Below are positions 5,101 through 20,198 of a DNA stretch of 20,806 nucleotides, one piece after another. A model generated the notes under the pieces. That model made no database searches. It had not been told where the DNA came from and saw only the letters and a list, made by a program, of their open reading frames with translations. The DNA comes from a virus. The translations under genes were made by a program, and so were the position numbers. Where the stretch lies: IMG/VR virus record IMGVR_UViG_3300035698_005866, positions 1 to 20,806 of that record; one strand, 5' to 3'. The number at the start of each line of letters is the position of its first letter. Position 1 is the first letter of the stretch.

Positions 5101-8100
5101 ACAAGCGGGTTACTGAGATATTAGATGAGGACTTCGATGGGCCTACTGATTTGGATATACTTGATGCAAACTTCGGAGTAGATGGGTTATTCCTAAAACC
5201 CAAAGCGATTGCCGACAGCACCGCCCCACTGCATCCTATTGCTGTTAGCATGTTAGTGGATGGGGACGTGCAGGGCGCACTTAACTTTATCGCGGAGTCT
5301 AGTAGCAACAAAGATATTGCCGGCGTAGCTAAAATACTAGCGGACAATATGGGTACGACTAAAGTAGAAGTGGTCGAAAACCTGCGCAGTCAAGTTACTG
5401 GTGAGCAGATTGCCGGTGTATTTGACCCGAAAACAAACACTATTAAGATAGACGCCGACAACGGTGTAAACATTCATACGTTACTGCATGAGGCTACGCA
5501 TGCGGCGACCAGTCACACATTGGCTAACAAGTCACACCCCGTTACTAAGAAGCTCACTGCTATATTTAACGGCAGTAAAGAATACTTAGAGCACGAATAC
5601 GGTGCCACTTCGCTTGACGAGTTTGTAGCAGAAGCATTTAGTAACCCTGACTTCCAGAACATACTGGCATCTATTAGGGTTGAGGGCGAACCACGTGGTA
5701 TGTTTGCCCAGTTTGCTAGGACTATACATAACATGATACGTGCTTGGCAGGGTAAACCTGCTTTGACCGATGTTTTCGATGTTAAGTCACAAACGGATAG
5801 ACTGATTAATTCTATACTGTCACCGGCCCCACGCTCACGGATTTCAGGGCAACTTGCCTTAGCACTGACGCCTATGGAAGCCGCTGAGCAGATGATGCAG
5901 GATAGAGACTCAGGTAAAGTAACAGCGAGTTCTTTCCTCAAAGATACGGTGGACTTCTTGTCGTCAGGCGTACCTAAGCACGCGAAGGAGATGCTTGCAG
6001 GGTTTATGCCCTCACAGCCTTTTGCGGATGTTGCTAACCACTATGGGTATGGCAACTTAGGGTATGATTTAGATAAGGCCTTACTAGAACGTAAAGAGGC
6101 AATAGGCAGAGCAGAAAAGCGGGCATCAGAGATTCTTATTGAGGCCGGTAAACTCCAGAAAAAGCTACAGCCTAATGATACAAAGCTGTTGCATTACTTG
6201 ACGTTTAACGAGGAAACCGGCTCGACCATGAAGCAGGTTGACCCCTTCTTAACCAAACAGGAAGCCGAGCTTGCTTACGGGTTTGACTCACCTAAGATGG
6301 AGATATGGGACATACAACAAGAAACTGTACGCTTGCTAAGCCCCGACGCTAAGACCTACTACCAATATGTAAAGCAGTCATATAAGTCTGAGTTTGAGCG
6401 CGTGAAAGATGCGTTGATAGGTAAGATAGAAACCACCGATGCCGATGCTAAGATTAAGGCGACTGTCACCCAAGAAATAAATGACATACTTATTAAGGTG
6501 GGTGAGTTGGCAGAATACATGCCGCTTGTGCGCGACGGTGATTTTAAACTAAGTTACCAGATAGTTGACCCTAAGGGCTCACCTGATATTGGCATAGAAG
6601 ATACTGCCAAAGCCATTAAGAACAACCGCTACGTCACGCGATTCTTTAAAAACAAGGTAGACCGTGACCGGTTTGCAAAAACACTTGAAAAAGATTCAGG
6701 TATTGAAACGGACACTATAAAAACAAGTGATGGCGACCTGATGTTAGACGACGTGGATAGTATGCCCCCTACTGCATTTGCACGTAAAACAATACAGATG
6801 CTTAGAAAAGCTGGTGTTCAAGACTCAGTGCAGGTTGACGTGTTAAGACTACTTGTCGATTACATGCCGGAAAGTTCTTTCCAACGCACGTTACAAGGTC
6901 GTCAGCAAATAAAAGGATTTGTGCCGGACATCCAAGAAGGATTAAAACTAAAAATATACGACATGACACGTCAGGTGGCTAGGTCTAAGTCCGATGGTAA
7001 GCTTAAGGATATTCAAGAAGCAATTACCCAGAGAACCAAAGATATTGCCAACCTAAAAACATCGGAGCGTACCGGCAAAGGCGAGGAGTCGGTGAGCCCC
7101 GTGGTGCAACGTGAATTATCGCTACGTGTAAAATTCGCTCTAGAGGGTGCGCAACACCCCACACTCGAAAAGTTTGTACGTTTTGGTACGCAGTACGCGT
7201 TCTTATCCACTATCGGCGCGAGTGTCGCGTCTACGATTGCTAACATGTCACAGTTACCTGTTATCATAATGCCCGCCCTCTCTGCTAAGTACGGCACGCA
7301 ACAGACGCTTAGTCAGATGGAATTCGCACGCAGGCTTGTGTTTGGTTCTAAATCCGGCTCACGCGCAGAAAGTACTTACAATAAGGTGATAGATAAAATA
7401 TCAATCGCTTATGGTGTCGACGCTTACTATGATGTTACTCACGACAGCGTGACGGACGAGGCAACATTTACCGTGCGTACGGACATGGATTTAGACCCCG
7501 AGATGGTGTCAGAGCTTAAGTCCTTAATCCCCATGGTGAAGTACGCCAAAGACCACAACATGCTAGATAACTCATTAACTAATGACCAACTCAGCCTTAA
7601 TGACATAGAAGGTATTGAAAAAGGCAGTAAAGTAAGTAGGTACTTCAACGGTCTAGTGTCACTATCGGCAGGTATGTTTAACCAAGGCGAGCGCTTTAAC
7701 AGGCAGATAACCTTGCTAGCATCTTACAATTTAAACCTTGAAGTAATGGTAGAAGCCAACCGCACTGCTAAAGATAAGAAAACCCTTGAGCAACTACAGC
7801 AGGAAGCGGCGCAAGCTTCTTTCTACGAAACCCAAGAGCTAAATGGTGGTAACGTGTTAGAGACAACCTCTAGACACGCACAACAGGGCCTAGGGCGCAT
7901 GGCGTTAATGTATAAAGGCTTTGGCATAAACATGGCCTATACACAGCTCAAAATGGCAAGGAAGGCGACTAAGGTGTATTTTGGCAACACCCCAGAAGAA
8001 AAAGCGATGGGTTGGCTTGCCACCAAGCAGTTAACCGCTATATTCGGTTCTTCTTTGTTTATGTCAGGTGTTTACGGGATTCCTATTTACGGCCTCGTTC

Positions 8101-8906
8101 AGATGATTTTCGACGTTATGCTTACAGACGAAGATGAAGATGACTTCGATAAAATTGTAGAGGATTATGTAGGCGAGAACTGGTATCGAGGCGGGCTAAA
8201 TCAAATACTAGCCGGCATAGGATTACCTATTGACTTAGGCTCACGTATTCGCTTGGCCGATTTGATTTACCAAGAGAACGTGTTTAACCCCGATGCTACT
8301 ACGGAAGAAACTATTGGTTACTTGTTAGGTGGTGTACCATGGAGCATGGTCAAGAAAACCCAACGCGGGCTAGTTGACCTAAAAGAAGGTGACTACCAAC
8401 GCGCCGCCGAGTCTATACTACCAACAGCGCTGTCCAACCCGCTAAAAGCAATAAACCGTTATGCGCCCGACTTCGGCATTAAAACACGTCGTGGTGACTT
8501 CTTATACGGTGAGTTGAGTCGTGGGGAGTTGCTCGCGCAGTTGATAGGGTTCCCACCCGCAGGTTACTTGCGGCAACAAGAGATAAACCGTAAGGCAAAG
8601 GGTATTGATATTTTCATCAACCAAGAAGCCACTAAGCTAACTAAGCAATACTATAAAGCTAGTAGGGATTTAGATTTTGACGAGATGAGTAGGGTCAAAG
8701 GTAAAATAGCCGAGTTTAATGCACGTAACAGGGCCGTTGCTATAGATGAGGAAGCAATCATCCGGTCGATGAAATCACATGTTGAGACAAGCGCTACTAT
8801 GTATAACGGCGTGGCGTTAAGTCCGAAGTACCGTAAAATAATTGAGGCTGATTTGCAGGGGGTTTATGGTTCGTTTAGTCCTGTGCGGAACTACTTTAAT
8901 AGATAA
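2127..8906 (+). CDS. Giant polyvalent/internal virion protein with HEXXH metallopeptidase and LPD38-like C-terminus
   Basis: The 2259-residue product starts at an ATG preceded by GAGGGG. The N-terminus (residues 1-35) is a short helical module, of a kind often seen at the start of large phage virion proteins. Residues about 118-170 are Gly/Ala-rich and hydrophobic. Residues about 350-800 are low-complexity, first Glu/Gln/Pro-rich and then Lys/Ala/Pro/Thr-rich like histone H1 tails, with two tandem repeats. A zinc metallopeptidase motif, HEATH, lies at 1121-1125, with a likely third ligand in DEFVAEAF (E1165 or E1169), as in the MPTase-PolyVal family. Further on are EYMPLVRDGD (about 1465), a hydrophobic stretch at about 1688-1718, and a region at about 1850-2080 resembling LPD38 (MALMYKGFGINMAY, then a hydrophobic pair). 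Known family members are phage proteins thought to be injected with DNA and cut by their own protease; this role here is inferred. No transglycosylase or RNA polymerase motif was recognised. Confidence 0.85.
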   Translation: MYSADQIAKAISLAKRDGNFQAVEELTHLYRRALESEGPSNASQVKRTNTRPQAGMDEDAGFFDNITSGFGAGVVGMGEMAALGGNTLFEEEQELKNREKIKDIASDLRPKGGNQDDWSYKIASGLGSIAAMLPAAGAAALVSNPVGASAVGLGLAGTMGVAAGAGEASERARDFGTTEDARNTATRFGALIGVTEIIPLGRFAKAFEIPWLNQLVKKAEPADIQKQRDRLINAFKTGTFEGAQELGAAVLQNLVATGYNPEQALVDSGAYEEGAIGGASGAILQGVIDLFARGKRGRTALPDDTPPDSGQFDDDPGGASNIDPNNITDEDLDGLASMGDEIDITSTPDTPLSPLPPVQTSPQMEIEEANRPMLEDTEEIVFENAQRQQLADEEAKLETQAQEAQANQPRPEQMNIDDLMLAPEIAQEKMMAQIRKEELETLAGRTPPPPTPVEEQLSMEDELGLNEIDQEKVDTQIRQETEDAVAGRETTKPNKPRVKVRPQPEQVAQPKPEQLDLDKLDKKLERDQERADDKARRAENKDLQKILLGETPPKRRKPKAAPVPKAAVEPVVEPVVEPVVEPVVEPVVEPVVEPVPKAVAKPTPTKPTKAGPLPTPKQKVADAQARKSDADALLGIEPVDPNIARNKKRADVARKSRAVALKNKKTAATKKAEQAQANRAKRKQEKQTRKATSITKPAVTRGATSITKPAVTRGATSITTPKVEPKKPTEKATKKATANKPGKTQQVATPKQVKVGVTKPAKKTAKENIKVTAEQAPKTDKPVRSIAEDKPLLKKDTQTSSTMPTEGDKSSSDDQFKDGPSKEGTTIARDFTRWTQSQTTKLDKDQVSAVRQFFDYIPATTKDAGLRALQEYRRVTDNIESALFMIATDLNVEYANYKNTNFRSKSDKKAYGETGKDAATAAYKTIQGMQGARNIGSVVKWMDEASNKYRSDIDNQGSNISMRDAKTKLAKDKAVTEANTRKKLAREEFRDNKRVTEILDEDFDGPTDLDILDANFGVDGLFLKPKAIADSTAPLHPIAVSMLVDGDVQGALNFIAESSSNKDIAGVAKILADNMGTTKVEVVENLRSQVTGEQIAGVFDPKTNTIKIDADNGVNIHTLLHEATHAATSHTLANKSHPVTKKLTAIFNGSKEYLEHEYGATSLDEFVAEAFSNPDFQNILASIRVEGEPRGMFAQFARTIHNMIRAWQGKPALTDVFDVKSQTDRLINSILSPAPRSRISGQLALALTPMEAAEQMMQDRDSGKVTASSFLKDTVDFLSSGVPKHAKEMLAGFMPSQPFADVANHYGYGNLGYDLDKALLERKEAIGRAEKRASEILIEAGKLQKKLQPNDTKLLHYLTFNEETGSTMKQVDPFLTKQEAELAYGFDSPKMEIWDIQQETVRLLSPDAKTYYQYVKQSYKSEFERVKDALIGKIETTDADAKIKATVTQEINDILIKVGELAEYMPLVRDGDFKLSYQIVDPKGSPDIGIEDTAKAIKNNRYVTRFFKNKVDRDRFAKTLEKDSGIETDTIKTSDGDLMLDDVDSMPPTAFARKTIQMLRKAGVQDSVQVDVLRLLVDYMPESSFQRTLQGRQQIKGFVPDIQEGLKLKIYDMTRQVARSKSDGKLKDIQEAITQRTKDIANLKTSERTGKGEESVSPVVQRELSLRVKFALEGAQHPTLEKFVRFGTQYAFLSTIGASVASTIANMSQLPVIIMPALSAKYGTQQTLSQMEFARRLVFGSKSGSRAESTYNKVIDKISIAYGVDAYYDVTHDSVTDEATFTVRTDMDLDPEMVSELKSLIPMVKYAKDHNMLDNSLTNDQLSLNDIEGIEKGSKVSRYFNGLVSLSAGMFNQGERFNRQITLLASYNLNLEVMVEANRTAKDKKTLEQLQQEAAQASFYETQELNGGNVLETTSRHAQQGLGRMALMYKGFGINMAYTQLKMARKATKVYFGNTPEEKAMGWLATKQLTAIFGSSLFMSGVYGIPIYGLVQMIFDVMLTDEDEDDFDKIVEDYVGENWYRGGLNQILAGIGLPIDLGSRIRLADLIYQENVFNPDATTEETIGYLLGGVPWSMVKKTQRGLVDLKEGDYQRAAESILPTALSNPLKAINRYAPDFGIKTRRGDFLYGELSRGELLAQLIGFPPAGYLRQQEINRKAKGIDIFINQEATKLTKQYYKASRDLDFDEMSRVKGKIAEFNARNRAVAIDEEAIIRSMKSHVETSATMYNGVALSPKYRKIIEADLQGVYGSFSPVRNYFNR
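3828..3911 (+). repeat. 12-bp tandem repeat (7 units) encoding VEPV
   Basis: Seven GAGCCT cores occur exactly every 12 bases from 3831 to 3903, encoding seven VEPV units (residues 568-595) within the giant virion protein. The repeat is in frame, so unit gain or loss would only change linker length. It lies at the start of the Lys/Ala/Pro-rich linker. Confidence 0.95.
4197..4283 (+). repeat. 36-bp tandem repeat (2.4 units) encoding ATSITKPAVTRG
   Basis: Two identical 36-base units (4197-4232 and 4233-4268) and the first 15 bases of a third encode residues 691-719 of the giant virion protein. The unit adds two positive charges, in keeping with a basic, possibly DNA-contacting linker. The absence of substitutions between the full copies points to recent duplication. 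Confidence 0.95.
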
Positions 8907-9012: not shown

Positions 9013-9249
9013 CGTACGCCAAATGCGTACACCGAAATATAAATTTTCTATCCTAACTTCAAACACCATACGCCACTTCTTAGTTGAAAAGAATTTCTTT
9101 ACCTGTACCACTGCCAATGACGAGTTAACACAAGGTATAAAGACGGAGGCGCCTACCTCCATCTTCTCCCAGTTTACCGATAGGATAAGACCATCAGGAT
9201 GCAGTTGGCCCTTCTTCAATATCTGCTTCGGAAACGTCGGTGGATTCAT
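9007..9249 (-). CDS. Small conserved-type phage protein, function unknown
   Basis: An 80-residue product is read from ATG 9249 with AGGTG nine bases upstream. A GTG at 9261 (84 residues, no ribosome site) and an internal ATG at 9162 (51 residues, GGGAGA only four bases away) are alternatives. The sequence WEKMEVGASVFIPC followed by a basic helix and a C-terminal strand FEVRIENLYFGVRIWRT has the look of a recurrent small alpha/beta phage protein family of unknown role that I recall only generally. The start overlaps the 3' end of the primase-helicase gene by 56 bases in another frame, and it is the last gene before the terminator. Its C-terminal codons contain an inverted repeat (GTACGC at 9014-9019 and GCGTAC at 9025-9030), probably a chance result of coding. 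Confidence 0.65.
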   Translation of the reverse strand: MNPPTFPKQILKKGQLHPDGLILSVNWEKMEVGASVFIPCVNSSLAVVQVKKFFSTKKWRMVFEVRIENLYFGVRIWRTL

Positions 9250-12085
9250 GTTTGTCTGCACCTATAAGAAGTTTAATCTCTAGCACGCGTTTACTCGGCA
9301 TTGAGTAAGAATACCCCGCAGTAATCCTTTTTCTTGTATCAGTGCTAGCACCATATGTCAGTACGAGTTCATCTCTGAAAGAGTTGTATGGTATATGCTT
9401 GGTAACACACCACTTACGCAACGGCCCAAGTAATAAGAAGTGCTTCTTAGTATCCGGCTCAAACCTACCAACCAGATTGCCTCTAGCCAACTGTTCTGGC
9501 ACTTGGAATAACTCCTTACCACCATCACCAAACTTCATACCCTTACTCTCGATATGCAGTATATTATTATAGTGTTCAGCAATGTAGTCAGATAGTGTTT
9601 CGCCCGCAGAGTTCTTCATACTTGCTAAGTTGGCTTTGTTCTCTTGTACTAACACATTAACCGCCCAATCAAGCACGGGTTTTATATCATATGTAATAAG
9701 CCTAGCTTGCTTAGCAAGTATCAGCCCCATAATTGTGTAGGTGATATGGGATGCCCAGAACCTATTCTCTACTGTAAAATTAGCCAAGCGTGATAACCTG
9801 TCACGGATAGTTGTTTCAAGCGCCGGCAGTTGGTCTACGTTGTTCATAAGGTATTGTACAAACACCTGACCTGCATGCCCATAGTTGTTCTCTATAGCCG
9901 TTTCAAACAAGCGACCTGCTGTTGTCTCTGACTCCTTAGTCAGCAATCGCGGGACTCTACACTCTAAAACCCGTAATGCCTCGGCCTGTGGCGCGGCCTT
10001 ATACTTGCCAATTATTTCAAGTATTGATGTGTTAGCAGTAGTTGCTGTCATCAGTGACCACGGCACACCACGTTTACGCTCCCTATTTGAGTTCATACTC
10101 ATACGGTTTCGTTGCATACCATTGGTAATTTCATATAGGTAGTCTGATGCGTGTGAGGATTCTATGTTGGTTATTTCGTCTATTACTACAGGTAAGCTGT
10201 GCATTAATTCCATGCGATTACCCCTAGATGCGTTAGTGCCTGATATATTAAGCATTAAACCTTTCGGACTGCCCCATATACCAAGCATCGCCTTTATTAT
10301 AGCTGACTTACCTACACCGGAATCCGTAGTGTAAAAGTGCATAGACGCGCACGCTTCGTTGGCCATGTGCATCAGCACTGAGCCAAAACCCATACCAAGC
10401 CCGAATTGCTGTAACACAAACCGTGGGTCATTCCAAAACTTCATGGTTTCTTTCCACGACTCTAGTGTGCCTTTAGGTTCAAAGTTAATAAACATATCCT
10501 TCACGGCATCTGATGGGGGATTCTCTGTCACGTTGTTAGCTGTTATCTTGCGGTCGCCAAGTAAGAACTCGTCGAAGCCGTCGCCCACCCACCCAAATTG
10601 CATCCGCGCTACGTCCGCTTTTTCTCTGACCTGTAATTCATCAACCCACTTCATAAGGTAGCCCCTCATATCATTGTAGTCTCTAACATTGACTCCCTTC
10701 ACTGCTAGTTCTCTACGTAATTCGTCCTTACCAGATACAGCAAGCATATTAATATCGAACTCTCGAATGCCATCCATAGGTAAGTGTAACTTCACCATTA
10801 CTTTTTCTACATCCCCGTCGAATATACGCTTGGTTGCATAAATATCATGGGGGTAGATAAGCTTTTCTTCATCGGGGTCATCACCAACACCTACGACTCG
10901 TAGGTACACCCCACCATTCTTGCCCCTAAAGTAAGGGAACGGAAACTTAGGTATACCGGCCACTGGCGGCGCAAACACCGCTGACGCTATTACTGGTAAC
11001 TTGTCAGGAGGTGATGTGTCGCTTTTGTATACAGGTCCGTCTACTTCTGCCTCTAACACCCTCATGCCTATTGTAATAGGGGATTTAATCTTACCTTTTA
11101 GTGGGCAGTCATTGCATCCATTGGGGTTAGCATCTGAAAAAGCTTCGCATGTTTGTGGTTTGGGTATCTCGTTGGCTTTATCTTCTGTCTTGTTGAAGTC
11201 ATACCCACTGTGCCGTTTAGAAATCAGGTGAATCGCTTTATGCCTATCGGAGCAAAACTGTGCTATAGATAGCCCCGCACGCCACAAAGGTTCCGACACT
11301 GCCTCTTGGTTTGTTACCAAGTATTTTATCTGTGCACACCCACGACCGGCTAGTGTCTCGGTCATTACCTTCTTAAAGACAGCCTCTTTGTTACCGGCCA
11401 GTTGTTGGTTAAGCCCACTCATAGATGGGTGTGCTAGTGTAGTAATAGTAGCAAGTGGTGCGTCGATTTCACCTATGATTGCTTTAAACGCCTCAAAAGA
11501 TGTCACCTTGCCTTCGGCCTTTACTGGCACGTCACGCGGCGGGTCATACTTTACGTTCTTAGTCAGTGGCATACGTAAAATACGTGAACCATCAGCAGTA
11601 ACGGCGTGGTCGGCGTGGAACTCATGCAATTTGCACAACTTCTTAAGAGCCACAGCCACAGGGCGCCACTCATCAAAAGTCACTGCTTCTTCTAAAGGCC
11701 AGTAAACATGTAGCCCACCACCGGATATGACAGTGTATGGTTTAGGTAGCCCGACTTCTTTGCAGAATTTCTTAAGTTCACCCCATGCGTGGGGTAAGTC
11801 TGTAAAACCCTTATCTACACCACAATCCACATCCAAAAAGAATGTGCGGATTTTAGCAATATTGTCGTGGCCTCTAGCTTTGACACCTTTGGCTTTACGC
11901 TCTGTGTAGGATGCTACAGCATAGAACGTGTTAACAGGTATTCCTTCAAATCCATCAGATGCTTTAACGAGTTCATCTAGAGTATCAAAAAACTTCTGGC
12001 GACCTTTACCTTCTTTATTTATTATTTTGAGGCAGTACAACCCCTCAGGGCACAATACTGTCTCTAAGAATGTTCTTCGGTTCAT
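9194..12085 (-). CDS. PrimPol-type primase fused to superfamily 3/D5-like helicase
   Basis: The 963-residue protein probably primes and unwinds phage DNA. The N-terminal archaeo-eukaryotic primase (PrimPol) fold shows the three expected motifs: DVD (85-87) for metal binding, SGGGLH (121-126), and D159 with the following DGSRILR (165-171). A cysteine group (C278, C313, C324, C327) with the adjacent sequence KGKIKSP is typical of phage primases and probably binds zinc or an Fe-S cluster. The C-terminal AAA+ part has Walker A SGVGKS (589-594), Walker B VVIDE (633-637) and a sensor-like TTANTS (about 682-687). It thus combines the two activities of T7 gp4 in an unrelated fold. The ATG start has only GGTGAT upstream. 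It lies 66 bases after the putative single-strand-binding protein gene; that gap holds a hairpin. The tail is mildly acidic. Confidence 0.9.
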   Translation of the reverse strand: MNRRTFLETVLCPEGLYCLKIINKEGKGRQKFFDTLDELVKASDGFEGIPVNTFYAVASYTERKAKGVKARGHDNIAKIRTFFLDVDCGVDKGFTDLPHAWGELKKFCKEVGLPKPYTVISGGGLHVYWPLEEAVTFDEWRPVAVALKKLCKLHEFHADHAVTADGSRILRMPLTKNVKYDPPRDVPVKAEGKVTSFEAFKAIIGEIDAPLATITTLAHPSMSGLNQQLAGNKEAVFKKVMTETLAGRGCAQIKYLVTNQEAVSEPLWRAGLSIAQFCSDRHKAIHLISKRHSGYDFNKTEDKANEIPKPQTCEAFSDANPNGCNDCPLKGKIKSPITIGMRVLEAEVDGPVYKSDTSPPDKLPVIASAVFAPPVAGIPKFPFPYFRGKNGGVYLRVVGVGDDPDEEKLIYPHDIYATKRIFDGDVEKVMVKLHLPMDGIREFDINMLAVSGKDELRRELAVKGVNVRDYNDMRGYLMKWVDELQVREKADVARMQFGWVGDGFDEFLLGDRKITANNVTENPPSDAVKDMFINFEPKGTLESWKETMKFWNDPRFVLQQFGLGMGFGSVLMHMANEACASMHFYTTDSGVGKSAIIKAMLGIWGSPKGLMLNISGTNASRGNRMELMHSLPVVIDEITNIESSHASDYLYEITNGMQRNRMSMNSNRERKRGVPWSLMTATTANTSILEIIGKYKAAPQAEALRVLECRVPRLLTKESETTAGRLFETAIENNYGHAGQVFVQYLMNNVDQLPALETTIRDRLSRLANFTVENRFWASHITYTIMGLILAKQARLITYDIKPVLDWAVNVLVQENKANLASMKNSAGETLSDYIAEHYNNILHIESKGMKFGDGGKELFQVPEQLARGNLVGRFEPDTKKHFLLLGPLRKWCVTKHIPYNSFRDELVLTYGASTDTRKRITAGYSYSMPSKRVLEIKLLIGADKHESTDVSEADIEEGPTAS

Positions 12086-12104: not shown

Positions 12105-12135
12105 ACGCCGTAGGATTATAGAAATACTACGGCGT
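12105..12135 (-). other. Intergenic hairpin before the primase-helicase gene
   Basis: A perfect 9-bp stem (ACGCCGTAG at 12105-12113, CTACGGCGT at 12127-12135) with a 13-base loop fills most of the 66-base gap. Read leftward it is followed by TTCTTCCC, not a continuous T-tract, so it may be a weak attenuator, an RNase processing site or a stabiliser rather than a full terminator. The lower primase level expected relative to the preceding binding protein would fit partial termination; this is inference. Confidence 0.55.
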
Positions 12136-12151: not shown

Positions 12152-13087
12152 CTACTCGTCATCCCAATCATCAATGATACTGGCTAAGTCGTCATCTACT
12201 TCCGGTGCAACACTTTTCTTACTCTGCGCCTTAACAGGTTCGTCTATGTCATCGTCGTCCTCGTCCTCGTCCTCTACCACAGGTTCAGGCTTAGGTTTGG
12301 CCTTAGGTTTGGCCTTAGGTTTGGCTTTATTCTCAGGCTTAGTCTCAGGCTCGTCCTCCTCGGCAACGGCGTGGTGCGACTTCTCCCCTTCACTCACAGT
12401 CAAATCAAGTGCTAGTTTAACCTCAGGCGTATCTTTTATTGCTACCACTTGGTTAAGTTCGACTTCGTTTAGAGGGCGCGTAGCCTTAAAGAATAACTTA
12501 GGTGTTTCAGCATCATCATCGAAGTACATGTTAGTCACTACGGCAATGGCCGGAGCTTTGTTGGCATTGAGGAATCGTGCATATGCCTGCATCGGCATTT
12601 TGCCACCCTCAGCACTACCGAAAACAGAAGTAGCAGGTAACTGCATTTGGTATATAGTCTCTAAGTCATCTTCTAAAACCACTGCTAGGCGTTGGCTAAA
12701 CCTACATGCTCTTGTATCGCCTTGTCCGCTACCTTTGATTGCTTGTGGGCAGGTAGAACAACTACTAGATTGTGGTTCCTTGACGTCGACGCTAGGCGTC
12801 TTAGTATCGGCAGACCAACATGACGGTGGCGAGTTACTTTTAGAGTCATAGGAACCCTCATAATAAGTACGCGCTATAGGTGCGGCGTCGATTACAATAA
12901 TACTAATATTGTCCTCTTTACTCACACTAACTTGTTCACCCCCAACTATCATACGGAACTTAGCACCTTTGATGCTGATGCGTTTATAGTCACCGCCACC
13001 TGCTAACTTGTTATTGTCCTCTAACAGTTGTTGGAAAAGCGGGTTTTTTGATAATGCGCCGGCAAAACCGGCTAGTTCGTTACTCAT
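12152..13087 (-). CDS. Putative single-stranded DNA-binding protein with Cys4 motif and acidic tail
   Basis: The 311-residue product has an ordered N-terminal domain (about 1-230) containing cysteines C90, C110, C113 and C128, a likely zinc site that recurs in phage proteins of this type. A Lys/Pro-repeat linker (about 250-268) and a strongly acidic region follow, ending in DDDLASIIDDWDDE. An acidic C-terminal tip containing an aromatic residue is the hallmark of bacterial SSB and T7 gp2.5, where it docks other replication proteins. The neighbours, a primase-helicase downstream and an HTH protein upstream, support a replication role. No canonical OB-fold signature was identified by eye, so the function is inferred from tail and context; a recombination mediator is the main alternative. 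The start has AAGGTG that overlaps the stop of the preceding gene. Confidence 0.65.
   Translation of the reverse strand: MSNELAGFAGALSKNPLFQQLLEDNNKLAGGGDYKRISIKGAKFRMIVGGEQVSVSKEDNISIIVIDAAPIARTYYEGSYDSKSNSPPSCWSADTKTPSVDVKEPQSSSCSTCPQAIKGSGQGDTRACRFSQRLAVVLEDDLETIYQMQLPATSVFGSAEGGKMPMQAYARFLNANKAPAIAVVTNMYFDDDAETPKLFFKATRPLNEVELNQVVAIKDTPEVKLALDLTVSEGEKSHHAVAEEDEPETKPENKAKPKAKPKAKPKPEPVVEDEDEDDDDIDEPVKAQSKKSVAPEVDDDLASIIDDWDDE
12288..12323 (-). repeat. 12-bp repeat (3 units) encoding the KPKA linker
   Basis: Three 12-base units of (G)(C)CTTAGGTTTG type (12288-12299, 12300-12311, 12312-12323) encode the Lys/Pro/Ala linker of the putative single-strand-binding protein. Directly beside it, a GTC/CTC-rich run (about 12253-12274) encodes the acidic stretch. 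Both change only the length of a flexible tether. Confidence 0.8.
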
Positions 13088-13096
13088 AAATACACC

Positions 13097-13444
13097 TTAT
13101 AAATCATCTTCGTAGTCACTAAGAATATCACGTAGTTCGTCATCGCTTTCTTCTTCTGAAACGACTTCAACACTACCACTTGTACTTGCAGGTTCGACTG
13201 TAGCAAGCGCGTCTAACTCAGCACCCGTCTGCTCTATCTCGGTTTGGGTAACATCACCGAGCGGTGGTGGCTCGTTTACCTCTAACAATGCCGCTTCCAC
13301 CTTGTCTAGATTAAACCGGTAAGTACTCCCCACCTTAACATATGCCGTGCTAGGGATGTGGCCGGACTTTATCCAGTTTCTAATAGTTGAAATGGAGACA
13401 GAGAATAAATCTGCCACCTCGCTAATCATTAGGTACGACTTCAT
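13097..13444 (-). CDS. HTH (excisionase/MerR-like) DNA-binding protein with acidic tail
   Basis: The first 55 residues form a winged helix-turn-helix of the HTH_17/excisionase type: SEVADLFSVSISTIRNWIKSGHIPSTAY followed by a YRF wing and LDKVEAALLE (helix-turn-helix at about 7-27). The rest is disordered and acidic, ending in DDELRDILSDYEDDL, which closely matches the tail of the next protein in the operon. The start ATG overlaps the stop of the preceding gene by four bases (ATGA), which implies translational coupling. It may be an origin-binding or regulatory protein, or a factor that recruits the replisome through the shared tail motif; with no integrase in view, excisionase activity is not supported. 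Confidence 0.75.
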   Translation of the reverse strand: MKSYLMISEVADLFSVSISTIRNWIKSGHIPSTAYVKVGSTYRFNLDKVEAALLEVNEPPPLGDVTQTEIEQTGAELDALATVEPASTSGSVEVVSEEESDDELRDILSDYEDDL

Positions 13445-13854
13445 TTTGAGTTCTTCCTTACGGTTATTTGGTACGCTGATGTCTGCTCTAAAGAGTCAGG
13501 TACATTGTCTGGGTTGTCTTTAATCCACTCCTTGACCGCCGTTTGGTTCAGGCGCTTCTCAAGGAAATCCGGCACGTTGTTCTCAATCACGAACTCGTGC
13601 ATGTTAGACCAATCACTTGACCAGTAACGGGTCTTTGTCGTGCGGATGAACGTGCCATGAGCTGTCTTGGAGCTCTCGACGCCATTCTTATTGCAAAAAT
13701 CTAATAACGCAACTTTGATTTTGTTTTGTTGTTCCTCTAACGCATCGTTTTGTAAATCAAACTCGCGCTTGAGTTCTTCACGCTTGGTGCGTATCTTAAT
13801 AAATACTCTGGTTAACTTATCTGGCAATGTTTCTGTAGGGGTCTCGTCACTCAT
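13441..13854 (-). CDS. Coiled-coil phage protein of unknown function
   Basis: The 137-residue product is the first gene after a strong promoter and has GGAGA six bases before its ATG. Residues about 10-50 form a charged helix likely to pair as a coiled coil (FIKIRTKREELKREFDLQ). The remainder, with the pattern HGTFIRTTKTRYW, then FLEKRLNQTAVKEW, resembles a family of small phage proteins found beside replication genes whose function is unknown to me. It shares a general layout with Gam-like nuclease inhibitors (helix pair then small domain) but I see no specific match. Expressed at the head of the operon with the HTH and binding proteins, it probably supports replication or recombination. Confidence 0.7.
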   Translation of the reverse strand: MSDETPTETLPDKLTRVFIKIRTKREELKREFDLQNDALEEQQNKIKVALLDFCNKNGVESSKTAHGTFIRTTKTRYWSSDWSNMHEFVIENNVPDFLEKRLNQTAVKEWIKDNPDNVPDSLEQTSAYQITVRKNSK

Positions 13855-13884: not shown

Positions 13885-13913
13885 ACTATACTAGTTAGAA
13901 GTAAGCTAGTCAA
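13885..13913 (-). promoter_or_regulatory. Sigma70-type promoter for the late part of the leftward block
   Basis: Read leftward, TTGACT (13913-13908), a 17-base spacer and TATAGT (13890-13885) match the sigma70 consensus at 5 of 6 positions in each hexamer with ideal spacing. Transcription would start near 13878, about 24 bases ahead of the 137-residue gene. The -35 box overlaps the last codons of the SNF2 helicase gene. ACTAG occurs twice as a direct repeat across the spacer (13907-13912 region and about 13891), a possible operator. Confidence 0.7.
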
Positions 13914-15441
13914 GTATATCTTTGTAAAGGTCTATAATACATGTGTGTAGGTTGATTTTGTTATCAAGCATTGAGTAAATGTGCTTTTCTACTGGTGAGC
14001 CACACAACTTCACTACAGTACACTTGTTCTCTTGGCCCGCTCTGTGGAACCGAGCATTTGCCTGTTCATATGTTTCTACGGAACTAGTTGGCCCCCACCA
14101 CACCGTTGTGTCGGCGGCTGTTAATGTAACCCCGTGTGCGGCTGATTGTGGTTGTATCACTAATACTTGCGGGTCGTCTGTATCTTGGAAGTTTCTGAAT
14201 ATCTTGGTTCGTTCATGTGCCGGAATGTCCCCCGATATAATAGCATTGCTCACGTTGTCATCTGTTAGCTTCCCCGATATAAGGTCAATCACGTTCTTGA
14301 AAGGTGCGAACACGATTACTTTCTTACTAGATTCGGCCATTACCTCACGTAGTACTTTGTATCTAGGGGTAATGTCAAAGAGTAGCACCTCACGGTCGTC
14401 GGTATACGTAGCACCAAGGGCAATTTGCAACAGTTTACTCATAGCAATCGCGGCGTTGGCGGCGGTGACTTCTTCGCCCGATGCTTGGATAACTAATTTC
14501 TGCTTGAGTGCTTTATAGAACTTCTGCTGTTGTCGGCTCAGGTCTACATCACGTTTCACGTAAACAAGTTCTGGTAAGTCTAGGCACTCTGCCTTAGTAA
14601 AACGAATGGCAGGTTGCAATACCCTGTGGACAGTTACATCCGCATCGGACTTAGGGACAAACTTAAATTGGTTTATCTTGTACATAACTTGGTCACGGAA
14701 TAGGTCGAGTCGGCGTGGCACCGATTCTTTATTTGCTAGTTTGGCAAGGCCATAAGCATCCATCGGGGATTGTGCGGCAGGAGTTCCAGTCATCTGCCAT
14801 AACCACGTGTCAGGCTGTATCAGGGCGTTCATCACCTTCCACCGATTAGTCTGCGGGTTTTTGTAGTGCGACGCCTCATCAACAATAACTAAGTCAAACC
14901 CACCCTTGGCAATGGTCTCACGTATAATCTCAATACCACCGTAGTTGATTATTACGTATTCTGTTTGTAGGGCTAGCACTTTTTCACGTTTGGCTTTTGA
15001 GCCATATGCGACTTCTACCGTGCGGTGCATCGCAAAATTAAACATGTCATCACGCCATGCAGACTCCATAATAGATAGAGGGCACACCACAAGCACGCGC
15101 TTGATTTTACCTATAGATAGTAAGTAGTCTGATGCGCCAATAGCCGCACCGGTTTTTCCCGTTCCCTGTTCGTTGAAGCAAAACGCGCGACGGTTCATAA
15201 CGAGGAAATCGGCGGTGGTTATTTGGTGGTCGAAGGGGGTGTATTTAGACTTCCACTTGTACTTACCCGTTAGGGGGGAAGGTACAGTGATACCTATGTT
15301 CTTTAACACGTGGCACTCATCTAAACCCCAATGCACTAGCACGCCGTTGTTACCGGCACGCTTGCTCTTGGGTATGAGGTTTGTTATCCGTTCGGGGTTA
15401 CGAACCTGCAACAATACAGCTTTGTTGTTTATTATTTTCAC
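13906..15441 (-). CDS. SNF2-family DNA helicase/translocase
   Basis: The 511-residue protein is a superfamily 2 ATPase of the SNF2 type, a double-strand DNA translocase. Visible motifs are Walker A (EQGTGKT, 91-97), motif II as DEAS (188-191), motif III MTGTP (217-221), a second RecA lobe with QPQSAAHGVTL (430-440) and motif VI QANARFHRAGQ (460-470). It is compact, without the extra domains of chromatin remodellers, as is usual in phages. The start is GTG at 15441, chosen because CCGGAGA lies five bases upstream. A 17-bp palindrome stands just ahead of that site. Likely roles are replication fork remodelling, branch migration or displacement of host proteins; which one cannot be told from sequence. 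Confidence 0.92.
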   Translation of the reverse strand: MKIINNKAVLLQVRNPERITNLIPKSKRAGNNGVLVHWGLDECHVLKNIGITVPSPLTGKYKWKSKYTPFDHQITTADFLVMNRRAFCFNEQGTGKTGAAIGASDYLLSIGKIKRVLVVCPLSIMESAWRDDMFNFAMHRTVEVAYGSKAKREKVLALQTEYVIINYGGIEIIRETIAKGGFDLVIVDEASHYKNPQTNRWKVMNALIQPDTWLWQMTGTPAAQSPMDAYGLAKLANKESVPRRLDLFRDQVMYKINQFKFVPKSDADVTVHRVLQPAIRFTKAECLDLPELVYVKRDVDLSRQQQKFYKALKQKLVIQASGEEVTAANAAIAMSKLLQIALGATYTDDREVLLFDITPRYKVLREVMAESSKKVIVFAPFKNVIDLISGKLTDDNVSNAIISGDIPAHERTKIFRNFQDTDDPQVLVIQPQSAAHGVTLTAADTTVWWGPTSSVETYEQANARFHRAGQENKCTVVKLCGSPVEKHIYSMLDNKINLHTCIIDLYKDILD

Positions 15442-15731: not shown

Positions 15732-16407
15732 TATTTGCTCCGTTGTGTATACACTGCTTAACCACGCAGTGTGCCCTGCATAACCCAGACGGCTTAGTAG
15801 GCCATACGTTAAGTTTGAATGCTTTAATCATCTCGTTGTTTCTACTAACCCAACCCGACCATAAACGAGACTTGTCTGATTTCTTGTATTTTGCTTTTAC
15901 TAGTTGGTTGCATTTAGTAAATACTAGACCGCCACTCACGTTCTCAACCTCAGGGTAACTTGCAAATATGAGCAGTGCCATCAACTCTAGTTGGTCTTTG
16001 TCAGCATAGTTAGCGTTCTTGCTAGTTTTGTAGTCAATTACAAACGCATGGTTACCTTTGATAATAAGTAAATCTACCACACCTCGTATCCATATGTCTT
16101 TACTAAAATAAGTACAAGGTACAAAATCATGCGTAATGCCAAGCTTAAGTTCGCAGTACTTCTTACCTGTCTTGTTCTTTAGCGAGTCGAGAACTGGTTT
16201 CATATACTGAAACTTTTTGGGTATTTCTACGTCGTCGCGTACATATCTTTCCGCTACTTTGTGGGCTTGGTTGCCGTATTTAGTAGCTGTGGTCTCTACA
16301 TACGGGAACTCGTTAAGGTGTCTTGTATGGTAAAACTGTTTAGGGCATTGCTCGAACGCCTTAAAGTGTGAGTAGGATGTAGGGTCTATAGCTTTTATGT
16401 TAGGCAT
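15724..16407 (-). CDS. PD-(D/E)XK nuclease, Cas4/RecB-like, with Fe-S-type cysteines
   Basis: The 227-residue protein shows the RecB/Cas4 nuclease pattern: FEQCPKQFYHTRH (C21), GNQAHKVAERYV (H49), GVVDLL (D112), VIDYKTSK (D125 and K127) and a Q139 in the following helix. C21 with C210, C214 and C219 (motif GLCRAHCVVKQC) matches the one-plus-three arrangement that binds a 4Fe-4S cluster in Cas4 and AddB. It would cut single-stranded DNA or trim ends during recombination. The ATG at 16407 is preferred over one at 16431 because GGAGA stands five bases before it and it overlaps the polymerase stop by only eight bases. No other CRISPR-related gene or array is present, so a recombination role is favoured. 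Confidence 0.88.
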   Translation of the reverse strand: MPNIKAIDPTSYSHFKAFEQCPKQFYHTRHLNEFPYVETTATKYGNQAHKVAERYVRDDVEIPKKFQYMKPVLDSLKNKTGKKYCELKLGITHDFVPCTYFSKDIWIRGVVDLLIIKGNHAFVIDYKTSKNANYADKDQLELMALLIFASYPEVENVSGGLVFTKCNQLVKAKYKKSDKSRLWSGWVSRNNEMIKAFKLNVWPTKPSGLCRAHCVVKQCIHNGANNG

Positions 16408-18244
16408 CACAATCTCCGTAATATTTTGCAACGTCTAAGTCACAACTAAGTGGTAAGTCTTTGGCCCATGGTGGACTCCAACACATCGAAGTGCGAACAA
16501 GCGACTTGGCTTTTTCTACAACGGCGATGTCTTGAGGGATGACTAGTACAAGTGAGTCATGCACCGTCAAACGTATAGGGTATGTTTTTTGTATTTTTAG
16601 CATTTGGTCTGCCATTACTATTTTAGCAAGTGCTTGGCAAATATTCTCAACTAGTTTACCACCATATATTCTGGTAGCCCCCTTGTTGCCCATGTACTTA
16701 TATTGCTCTCCTTTGTCGGTACGTTCTGATACGTGTAGTGAGGGGTAGAACTGCACTAACCCGTTAGGGAGTAGTATACCTTCACGCTCAGGCAATACAG
16801 TAAGCACACCCTCTCGGCCAAATGGTAGCGCCTTACCCTTTGCAAGTGCGGCGATGACATCATTACCCCGATACCATAACTTAACGATGTTCTTATATGT
16901 GGCTCTATATGTGCGCACTATCTTAGTAGACTCTTGCAGTGATATGAGAACGCCGGCTTGCGCCCGCAACTGGTCTCGAAACTTCTCAGCACCCATCCCA
17001 TATCCGCATCCGAGAATACACATCTTACCAATAAATCTTTCGGCGGGCGTGATTTTAGATTCTGGTTTATTATAGATGCGACTAGCCATACTGATGTACA
17101 CATCGTCACCACGTAGGAACGCGTTAACAAGCTCATGCTCCCCTGCCAACCACGCAACTATGCGCGCCTCGATTTGTGCCGAGTCAGCCACCAAGCATAA
17201 ATAGCCCTCAGGCGCACGGATAGTACGCTTCAATATCTTACCATTCGCGCCCCGACTGGGTAGGTTTTGCAGGTTGATTTTGTCTGTGCCACCCCATCTT
17301 CCGGTGTGTGCGGCGTAGTAGCTTATAGGCCCCGGGAGAAGTCCACGCTCTGCTATACCTATAAACCTCTCAGTACGTGTTTCTTCTAGCGTTGATTTAT
17401 TACCGAGTCTGGCGTTCGCAAGTGCTTGTACTACCTCGTTGTCATGGTCAAGTAGTTCTTTAAATCCGTCGTCCGTCTTAGCAAATGCAAATGCGGTCTT
17501 ACCTGTTTTCAGGCTTATCTTCGTGGGGGGTTCGATGCCTTCGGCGCGTAACAACTCAGCAAACTTGTTGTTACTCATAAGGTCTTTTTTATCCACCCCT
17601 GCTTCGGCAAGTAGTTCGGCTTTGCGCCGTTTGACACCAACAAGGTGGTTCTCTAATCGTTCTTCGTTCAGCTCAAGTATGGGGTTTGTAAACATCTTAA
17701 GCGTCATATCTATAACACCGAGTTCCTTTTTAGGGAACCCATGCTTCATATAATACCTAAACAAGCCATAGGTTAAATCACAGTCAAGGATACAATAGTC
17801 ACCATACCTTGCTAGTTCTACTTCGGAAAAGTCCAACCGTCTTTTACCAAGTGCATGTATAACCTCGTCACCCTTAGCTTGATTAAGGTGTCTTTCTGCT
17901 TGCTTAGCGAGTGAGTGACGCATGTGTAAGCCGTTATGCGCCCGAGACATAAGCATAGTATCAGCAAGGCGTTTAGGGCGAATACCAAAATGCCAACTAA
18001 GAATAGCCCCGTCAAAAATAGTATTTTGGCCGAGTAGTACAGCATTATCCCAATCAAACGAATGTAGGTATTCATATATCTCAGCCTTAGTGCCACTGGC
18101 CCACTCTGTCTCTCCATCATTTACTTTTACTCCTACGCCTATCACCTCAAACTGCGGGTCACGTATATATGCTTCGGTTGTCATCTTGCTAAGTGAGTAC
18201 TCTTTACTGTAAAAAGTTTCAAAGTCGAGGGTTATTAGGTTCAC
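16400..18244 (-). CDS. Family A DNA polymerase with 3'-5' exonuclease
   Basis: The 614-residue replicative polymerase has an N-terminal DnaQ-like proofreading domain (DFE at 7-9; QNTIFD to D78; YCILD with D154) and a polymerase domain with TGRWGG (314-319), motif A DSAQIEAR (354-361), motif B R403-x3-K407-x3-L411-x3-YG (415-416) and motif C HDS (562-564). The 5' nuclease domain of bacterial Pol I is lacking, as is common in phages. L411 aligns with E. coli F762 and S564 with the E883 carboxylate, both noteworthy. The start is GTG (18244), overlapping the preceding stop as GTGA, so translation is probably coupled; GGTGA lies upstream. It is followed at once by the Cas4-like nuclease. Confidence 0.95.
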   Translation of the reverse strand: MNLITLDFETFYSKEYSLSKMTTEAYIRDPQFEVIGVGVKVNDGETEWASGTKAEIYEYLHSFDWDNAVLLGQNTIFDGAILSWHFGIRPKRLADTMLMSRAHNGLHMRHSLAKQAERHLNQAKGDEVIHALGKRRLDFSEVELARYGDYCILDCDLTYGLFRYYMKHGFPKKELGVIDMTLKMFTNPILELNEERLENHLVGVKRRKAELLAEAGVDKKDLMSNNKFAELLRAEGIEPPTKISLKTGKTAFAFAKTDDGFKELLDHDNEVVQALANARLGNKSTLEETRTERFIGIAERGLLPGPISYYAAHTGRWGGTDKINLQNLPSRGANGKILKRTIRAPEGYLCLVADSAQIEARIVAWLAGEHELVNAFLRGDDVYISMASRIYNKPESKITPAERFIGKMCILGCGYGMGAEKFRDQLRAQAGVLISLQESTKIVRTYRATYKNIVKLWYRGNDVIAALAKGKALPFGREGVLTVLPEREGILLPNGLVQFYPSLHVSERTDKGEQYKYMGNKGATRIYGGKLVENICQALAKIVMADQMLKIQKTYPIRLTVHDSLVLVIPQDIAVVEKAKSLVRTSMCWSPPWAKDLPLSCDLDVAKYYGDCDA

Positions 18245-19404: not shown

Positions 19405-19616
19405 TTTGATAACTCCTTAGTTATATTTTGAGACCACTGCTTTTGTTTTTCGATTGACTCCCAATTATCGTGGATGGTGTTTCTCTTAAACACTACTTTA
19501 CTAAACCACGTAGTTCTCTCGGTGTCATAGTAATAAGTTGTCATATAACAACGTTCGGTTGCTTTCCACATATTAAAAGAAAACTCAAGTCTTGCTATAA
19601 ATTGCTTAAAAGTCAT
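19401..19616 (-). CDS. 71-residue hypothetical protein
   Basis: The start ATG 19616 follows ACCGGAGAG at five bases, within the second copy of the palindrome leader. The product is rich in aromatic residues and Lys (three consecutive Tyr near residue 28, three Trp in all), with no membrane helix and no known motif. It overlaps the next gene by four bases. I do not recognise it. Its expression may be controlled by the palindrome that lies just before its ribosome site, in the same way as the SNF2 helicase. Confidence 0.6.
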   Translation of the reverse strand: MTFKQFIARLEFSFNMWKATERCYMTTYYYDTERTTWFSKVVFKRNTIHDNWESIEKQKQWSQNITKELSK

Positions 19617-19622
19617 TTTTAC

Positions 19623-19655
19623 TCTCCGGTTTAATAGTAGGGAATCCCTACTATT
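19623..19655 (-). promoter_or_regulatory. Palindrome plus ribosome-site leader, copy 2
   Basis: A 23-base palindrome with one central base (19633-19655, core AGTAGGGATTCCCTACT) overlaps the TAG stop of the secreted-protein gene. Next, read leftward, comes AAACCGGAGAG, the ribosome site of the 71-residue gene. The 30-base block 19623-19652 matches copy 1 at 28 positions, with one change at the palindrome centre and one in the spacer. The RNA form is a 10-bp stem with a three-base loop. Confidence 0.75.
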
Positions 19656-19959
19656 TGAGTTCAGTTATACACATCTTAAATACGTTGTTCGCGAAGTCTG
19701 CGACTGCTTCATCTCTCCCTGCTTGTGTCATTCGCACGTGAGTTTCAAAGGCGTAGTCGATAACAGCAATAACAAGGGAGTTACCGCCTACTAAAGCATA
19801 CATCTCAGCCATCGACATGCCACTTTGCCTCGCCACCATAATATTCTTAGCTGACTTACTCAACTCAGTGCATGTTATTATTGTACTCTCTGGTAGTGTT
19901 TCTGCTGCTGATAGAAATGAACAGCCAATTAATATTGTTGCTAAAATAGTATTTTTCAT
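19651..19959 (-). CDS. Small secreted (periplasmic) protein
   Basis: The 102-residue protein has a typical signal peptide: M-K-N, a hydrophobic core TILATILIGCSFL and a probable cleavage after SAA (residue 19). LIGC at 10-13 formally matches a lipobox, but Cys13 would leave a very short leader, so type I cleavage is preferred. The mature part is helical with C30 and C97 able to form a disulfide, and a motif AKNIMVARQSGMSMAEMY that resembles a recurrent family of small exported phage and bacterial proteins of unknown function. The ribosome site GGAGAG is fused to the stop of the previous gene (GGAGAGTAAAAATG), implying coupling. It may act in the envelope during infection, for example in superinfection exclusion (inference). 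Confidence 0.75.
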   Translation of the reverse strand: MKNTILATILIGCSFLSAAETLPESTIITCTELSKSAKNIMVARQSGMSMAEMYALVGGNSLVIAVIDYAFETHVRMTQAGRDEAVADFANNVFKMCITELK

Positions 19960-19961
19960 TT

Positions 19962-20198
19962 TTACTCTCCGGTGTGTAGTGTTATTGCCTTGTCTGACAG
20001 GTGTTTGATTTTAATCTTAGTACGTGTTGACACGAAACTGTGTGATATTCTGGGACTGCATCCATAATACGCCTTGGTGAAATCCCCGACGAATATTTCC
20101 ATGTCTCGTAGTTTGGCATAGCCCCTTTCTATTTTGGCCACGTGTAATACTTGTGTAATATTATTTTGTAATATACAGGCTGTGTTTTTATACACCAT
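19962..20198 (-). CDS. 78-residue hypothetical protein
   Basis: The start at ATG 20198 gives 78 residues and an 11-base overlap with the preceding gene; an upstream ATG at 20243 would give 93 residues and a longer overlap. Neither has a clear ribosome site, so coupling to the previous gene is likely. The product is basic (many Lys and Arg, IKIKHLSDKAITLH at the end) with two Cys, and has no recognised motif. Its final codons GGA GAG form the ribosome site for the secreted protein. DNA or RNA contact is possible from the charge but cannot be claimed. Confidence 0.55.
   Translation of the reverse strand: MVYKNTACILQNNITQVLHVAKIERGYAKLRDMEIFVGDFTKAYYGCSPRISHSFVSTRTKIKIKHLSDKAITLHTGE

Follow-up and report, generated by a model that had tools for sequence, protein, structure and literature searches.

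The window analysed here, the whole of IMG/VR virus record IMGVR_UViG_3300035698_005866 (20,806 bases, possibly a fragment), carries on its minus strand a replication module in which a family A DNA polymerase, a PD-(D/E)XK nuclease, an 86-aa protein, an SNF2 helicase, a Mu Gam-like protein, a helix-turn-helix (HTH) protein, a single-strand-binding (SSB)-like protein and a DUF927 primase-helicase follow one another in that order (Table 1). The HTH and SSB-like genes are adjacent and co-oriented with 9 nt between them, and the C-termini of their products, DDELRDILSDYEDDL and DDDLASIIDDWDDE respectively, both fit the pattern D-D-[DE]-L-x-x-I-[IL]-x-D-[WY]-[DE]-D.

Table 1. Features of the HTH and SSB-like genes and of their neighbours in the window.
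Feature	Coordinates	Strand	Basis
HTH protein, 115 aa: HTH_17/MerR-excisionase-type domain, disordered acidic linker, C-terminal tip	13097..13444	-	PF12728, PF00376, model
HTH domain, residues 4-55	13280..13435	-	Pfam, model, nearest folds
HTH C-terminal tip DDELRDILSDYEDDL	13100..13144	-	SSB-like form in L013, L015; altered in L018/L102
SSB-like protein, 311 aa, PHROG 27714, probable replicative SSB	12152..13087	-	phrog_27714, slot exchange, OB-like model
Predicted OB-type body, residues 33-237	12377..12991	-	AlphaFold2 model and VIA-align
Probable zinc site, C90, C110, C113, C128	12704..12820	-	Four invariant cysteines; putative metal binding
Linker and tip module, residues 277-310	12158..12259	-	Homologous to C-terminus of relatives' gp2.5-like SSBs (hhalign)
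SSB C-terminal tip DDDLASIIDDWDDE	12155..12196	-	Conserved among SSB-slot proteins
DUF927 primase-helicase, candidate docking partner	9194..12085	-	PF06048 E 2.3e-24; co-occurs with tip
SNF2-type helicase, candidate docking partner	13906..15441	-	PF00176 E 1.9e-20; co-occurs with tip
Family A DNA polymerase, candidate docking partner	16400..18244	-	PF00476 E 5e-34; co-occurs with tip where contigs long enough
Mu Gam-like protein, fixed upstream neighbour of HTH gene	13441..13854	-	phrog_13900 E 1.8e-18; weak Phage_Mu_Gam; adjoins HTH gene in relatives

Several further features were seen in the window. The short gap between the SSB-like gene and the start of the primase-helicase holds an inverted repeat of 9 bp whose arms enclose a loop of 13 nt (ACGCCGTAG ... 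CTACGGCGT; 12105-12135), spotted by eye, which is possibly a terminator, an attenuator or a binding site. An exact 18-nt direct repeat, TCATTTTTACTCTCCGGT, lies at 19613-19630 and 19956-19973, and on the minus strand each copy supplies a small gene with its ribosome-binding site and start codon. A virion-type protein of 2259 aa (2127-8906) contains a repetitive PVVEPVVEP region and over its C-terminal third is similar to DarB-like/PLxRFG proteins from podophages of Klebsiella, Erwinia and Pseudomonas. The Pfam scan also gave a 0.012 match to Gp3-like, a recombination directionality factor, which was set aside as below its cut-off.

The SSB-like protein matches phrog_27714 (E 9.9e-38), a family listed as of unknown function; its relatives are encoded by 436 IMG/VR stretches, with 80 loci retained for analysis, and none were found in cellular genomes. 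The AlphaFold2 model, made with 57 relatives, is confident in the core and shows the linker as disordered, with a short helix at the tip. When this model was compared with solved structures using VIA-align, RB69 gp32 (Z 7.5) and the T4 gp32 core (Z 6.7) ranked first, over ~150 residues at an rmsd of ~4, followed by a BRCA2 OB domain (Z 6.5) and then by folds at 4.5 and below. All of these Z scores are below 8, and the match of the predicted structure to a gp32-like fold is accordingly of middling strength, suggestive rather than decisive; a Foldseek search of the model against the PDB gave no match at E<0.001. Four cysteines (C90, C110, C113 and C128) are invariant in the 57 aligned relatives; T4 gp32 has a zinc site, and by analogy the cysteines probably form a metal site as well. 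No sequence kinship with gp32 was found: the protein does not match PF08804 (gp32), hhalign gave a probability of 0.6%, and gp32 was absent from the profile matches to PDB chains. The T7 gp2.5-type profiles (phrog_112, PF10991, PF21265) likewise found no match in the body of the protein, which ends W-D-D-E and lacks an end like the bacterial SSB-Ct Asp-Asp-Ile-Pro-Phe. Its linker includes a PKAKPKAKPKAK stretch encoded by 12-nt tandem repeats (12281-12328).

The upstream HTH protein matches PF12728 (E 1.2e-9, 38.7 bits against a cut-off of 27) and also PF00376 (MerR), and its HTH_17 domain places it with the MerR-excisionase type of DNA-binding protein. In its model the HTH occupies residues 4-55 and a further helix residues 101-114, and the nearest solved folds are Pukovnik Xis and BldC. 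An earlier note on this DNA had described the two neighbours as unrelated outside a common acidic C-terminal motif, and this description holds, with an HTH_17/MerR-type domain in one protein and an OB-type body in the other; the coordinates, strands and tail sequences that it gave are also correct.

To assess the likeness of the tails, the last 22 residues of each protein were matched without gaps under BLOSUM62, and the best score was compared with those from 2000 shuffles of the HTH tail. No shuffle equalled the observed score in the window (0/2000, p<0.0005) or at the related locus L015 (0/2000), while p was 0.0075 for L013 and ~0.02 for L018 and L102, and in nearly all remaining relatives the likeness was not significant. 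A tree of the SNF2 proteins groups the window, L013, L016 (whose HTH protein is identical to that of L015) and L018 in one clade with support of 100/100. When 86 non-redundant HTH tails were scored against a profile of 96 SSB tips, three (those of the window, L013 and L015) reached p<0.01, and the HTH family overall lay near expectation, with eight of the 86 below 0.05; family-wide likeness to the SSB tip is thus not significant beyond the window clade. The C-terminal pattern occurs, among 6317 distinct ORFs of the loci, in the same three HTH proteins, in one gp2.5 fragment and in 171 SSB-slot proteins, a number that is not a frequency because the tip itself was used to retrieve many of the SSB-slot loci. 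The three tipped HTH proteins were not so chosen, L013 and L015 having come from the search with the SSB body. Across IMG/VR, a strict DNA pattern designed on the HTH tip matched five contigs only, all of them already known as closest relatives. On the strength of the shuffling (in the window and L015) and the ORF background a chance origin was rejected, and the likeness of the HTH and SSB tails noticed in the earlier note is confirmed as real.

The SSB tip is by far the more widespread of the two. Three forms of the SSB slot were distinguished: form A, that of the window, has a PHROG 27714 body with the tip; in form B a PHROG 27714 protein without the tip precedes a gp2.5-like protein that bears it; and form C has a tipped gp2.5-like protein, no PHROG 27714 gene being seen in that slot. 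At loci not chosen by tip, 102 distinct SSB-slot proteins were compared and 99 of them have the full motif; of those of the window form 83 of 85 have it, the other two (L145 and L148) retaining W-D-D. An exception in form B is L151, where the tip is absent in every frame at the end of the gp2.5-like gene. None of 30 distinct PHROG 27714 C-termini in form B bears the tip, which is carried instead by the adjacent gp2.5-like protein. The gp2.5-like bodies that occupy the slot in many relatives match phrog_112, Enc34_ssDNA-bd and SBB_T7, both Pfam models only near their cut-offs, and when their family was compared with PHROG 27714 by hhalign the last 34 residues were the sole shared region (41% identity, E 7.1e-12). 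About three changes are needed to account for the three forms on the SNF2 tree. L151 apart, the SSB tail was thus retained through each change of body, and its tip is old and modular. Tip-less PHROG 27714 genes beside a gp2.5-like gene, tipped except in L151, were recorded at L151, L175, L180, L182 and 38 more loci. These tip-less proteins end SPFxxxEGFxxN, a segment similar to the NPFxxVEGF stretch that follows the OB part in gp2.5-like proteins and a possible sign of an old connection between these genes.

That the window protein is probably an SSB follows from the tip, which also ends gp2.5-like SSBs in the same slot of relatives; the earlier note, which took the downstream protein for a putative SSB, was very probably right. 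We therefore regard the 311-aa PHROG 27714 protein as a probable replicative SSB that would bind ssDNA, one that probably works like an SSB yet is not to be filed in the gp32 or the gp2.5 family. This suggests an SSB function for a PHROG family that is widespread in uncultured phages. True gp2.5-like proteins occupying this slot finish with the same linker and tip, and the comparison therefore also supports reading the tip as a docking element of the gp2.5/SSB kind. The phage group thus offers a natural experiment in which it is the putative docking tail, and not the ssDNA-binding body, that stays constant; a keyword search of a set of papers for displaced phage SSBs gave none.

Known SSBs resemble the window protein in part. 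With the T7-type phage SSBs T7 gp2.5 and Enc34 ORF6 it shares an acidic C-terminal tail on a replicative SSB (here a probable one); the tail is homologous to the tails of the relatives' gp2.5-like proteins, and in relatives such a protein bears this very tip in the same slot. Its body, however, is not gp2.5-like by any profile, and T7 gp2.5 itself ends ...SWDEDDEESEEADEDGDF. T4 gp32 provides the nearest solved fold and has a cysteine-rich insert and a tip of the same design (DLDDLLNDL), but sequence kinship was not found, the cysteines come in a different order and the Z of the fold match is middling. Tips of this design (DLDDLLNDL and DDDLNDILNDL, for example) also end several gp32 relatives, a likeness that we read as convergence. 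The E. coli SSB-Ct similarly joins a disordered linker to a conserved tip that recruits many partners (PMC7145534); the present motif differs in its W-D-D end and in being imitated on a neighbouring DNA-binding protein.

The history of the HTH tip is different. The usual end of this family is hydrophobic-D-(E/D)-D-hydrophobic, unlike the SSB tip, and some lineages are without an acidic tip; among 127 distinct HTH C-termini there is a D at -2 in 109 and at -4 in 96, and the last residue is mostly hydrophobic. The final two or three residues of the HTH tip (x-D-L), which are absent from the SSB tip, match this D-x-D-hydrophobic end. In forms B and C, where the downstream ribosome-binding site is not next to the stop codon, the same end is still present, and a constraint from that site was therefore rejected as its cause. 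The HTH proteins of the window, L013 and L015 also contain the block L-x-x-I-L-x-[DE]-Y, of which L018/L102 have an altered form. Within the window clade the HTH tip can be aligned and the linker cannot, and synonymous changes make up about half of the codon differences in the tip, a pattern suggestive of selection on the peptide. The earlier note named independent variation of the two tails in relatives as grounds for rejecting its idea. Inside the window clade both tails are kept, but across the phage group they do vary independently, SSB tips staying in place while HTH tails range from none, through hydrophobic-D-x-D-hydrophobic, to SSB-like, and this weakens the note's interpretation. The tails therefore do not go back to a single ancestral feature: nearly all members of the phage group have the SSB tip, and the SSB-like HTH tip, confined to a small clade, is a clade-specific echo of it.

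Our preferred reading, to which we assign a probability of about 0.5, is that the window encodes an SSB with an OB body whose tip docks on a replisome protein, and that the HTH tip of its clade imitates the SSB tip and most likely contacts the same surface. The SSB would have three parts: an OB-type body that holds a probable zinc site, then a disordered linker, and at the very end an amphipathic acidic tip (D-x-L-x-x-I-I/V-x-x-W-D-D) that would dock on a conserved phage replisome protein, namely the primase-helicase, the SNF2 helicase or the polymerase. Such a partner would read the tip rather than the body, because the linker-tip module is kept whether the slot body is PHROG 27714 or gp2.5-like. 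The T7 gp2.5 tail has been implicated with both polymerase and primase-helicase (PMC5686142). Naming the partner by co-occurrence failed, as the primase-helicase, SNF2, Gam-like and polymerase genes are all found together with the tip on contigs of sufficient length. In the window clade the HTH protein would either bring a sequence-specific DNA binder to the partner or compete with the SSB for it, and its role may accordingly lie in bringing the partner to a DNA site, in transcription or in that competition. If its tip does bind the same socket, a DNA-site binder would be using the SSB's own route to the replication machinery.

A precedent for a common docking partner is found in T4, where gp43, gp55 and gp33 end in hydrophobic-acidic motifs that serve the gp45 clamp and can replace one another; in gp55 the motif follows a variable linker (PMC2988020). 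By this analogy a partner common to both tips is plausible in the window clade, the only place where such very similar conserved C-termini were found on the two unrelated proteins. The likeness extends to highly similar hydrophobic-acidic ends behind variable linkers (PMC2988020), but in T4 the partner is proven and the motifs are interchangeable, whereas here the partner is only proposed, and no clamp was identified in the window. Slightly more tentatively, the module could be a transplantable replisome-docking device, one plug fitted to exchanged SSB bodies, with the clade's HTH imitation sharing or competing for a single replisome socket. Against our preferred reading, HTH proteins in the rest of the family lack an end like that of the SSB or have no acidic end at all, so that such a tip is generally dispensable. 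The x-D-L end of the HTH tip, which fits its own family, also counts against it, as do the middling gp32-like fold match and the absence of kinship in sequence profiles.

It is possible, if less to our liking, that the SSB tip alone docks on the replisome and that the HTH tip is its family's own motif with a different partner, similar by convergence of acidic amphipathic tails. The aspartates at -2 and -4 and the hydrophobic last residue in most of the HTH family favour this, as does the family-wide similarity to the SSB-tip profile, which is barely above chance, and the gp32 tips, of the same design without kinship, indicate that such acidic tips recur. Convergence accounts less well for the tails of the window, L013 and L015, which fit the SSB profile far better than their own shuffles, and for the whole matching block, beyond the end, being kept while the linker diverges. 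We consider it unlikely that the HTH tail is an acidic lid, without a protein partner, which folds back on its own HTH domain and lowers non-specific DNA binding by charge mimicry: residues 59-115 do have a net charge of -17, and in phage SSBs acidic tails modulate how the protein binds DNA (PMC5686142), but the net charge of the HTH domain is 0 and a plain charge lid would need no conserved L-x-x-I-L-x-x-Y spacing.

As the two genes are adjacent and co-oriented, the HTH tip could be a recent copy of the SSB tip made by duplication or gene conversion. We hold this to be very improbable: over 39 nt the two tips agree at only 23-25 positions, and their identical residues use the same codon in 2/6, 4/5 and 3/8 cases in three genomes, which argues against recent copying and led us to reject a recent duplication into the HTH gene; an old, eroded copy is still conceivable. 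Least credible of all is a chance similarity of two functionless acidic tails. Acidic tails are common and p<0.01 was reached by few HTH tails, but those few belong to the window and its two nearest relatives, in which the motif is kept despite diverged linkers.

The earlier note went on to suggest a possible origin-loading mechanism. Between 8800 and 20806 there are no inverted repeats of at least 16 nt within 400 nt, and apart from repeats in coding sequence and a short duplicated start region nothing there resembles an array of iterons; origin loading is not supported. Its interpretation as a whole is thus borne out in part, being right in kind for the SSB tip and plausible, though unproven, for the HTH tip.

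Distant PHROG 27714 relatives also occur in named phages, with varied C-termini: the Xp15 protein (L095) ends TGNW, those of HHU4 (L096) and Effie (L098) end FDDIANKW, that of Rollin (L093) ends AFAGWDD and that of KPP25 (L097) is without the tip. In Xp15 and HHU4 the gene next to the PHROG 27714 relative encodes a carbamoyltransferase rather than a DUF927 primase-helicase.
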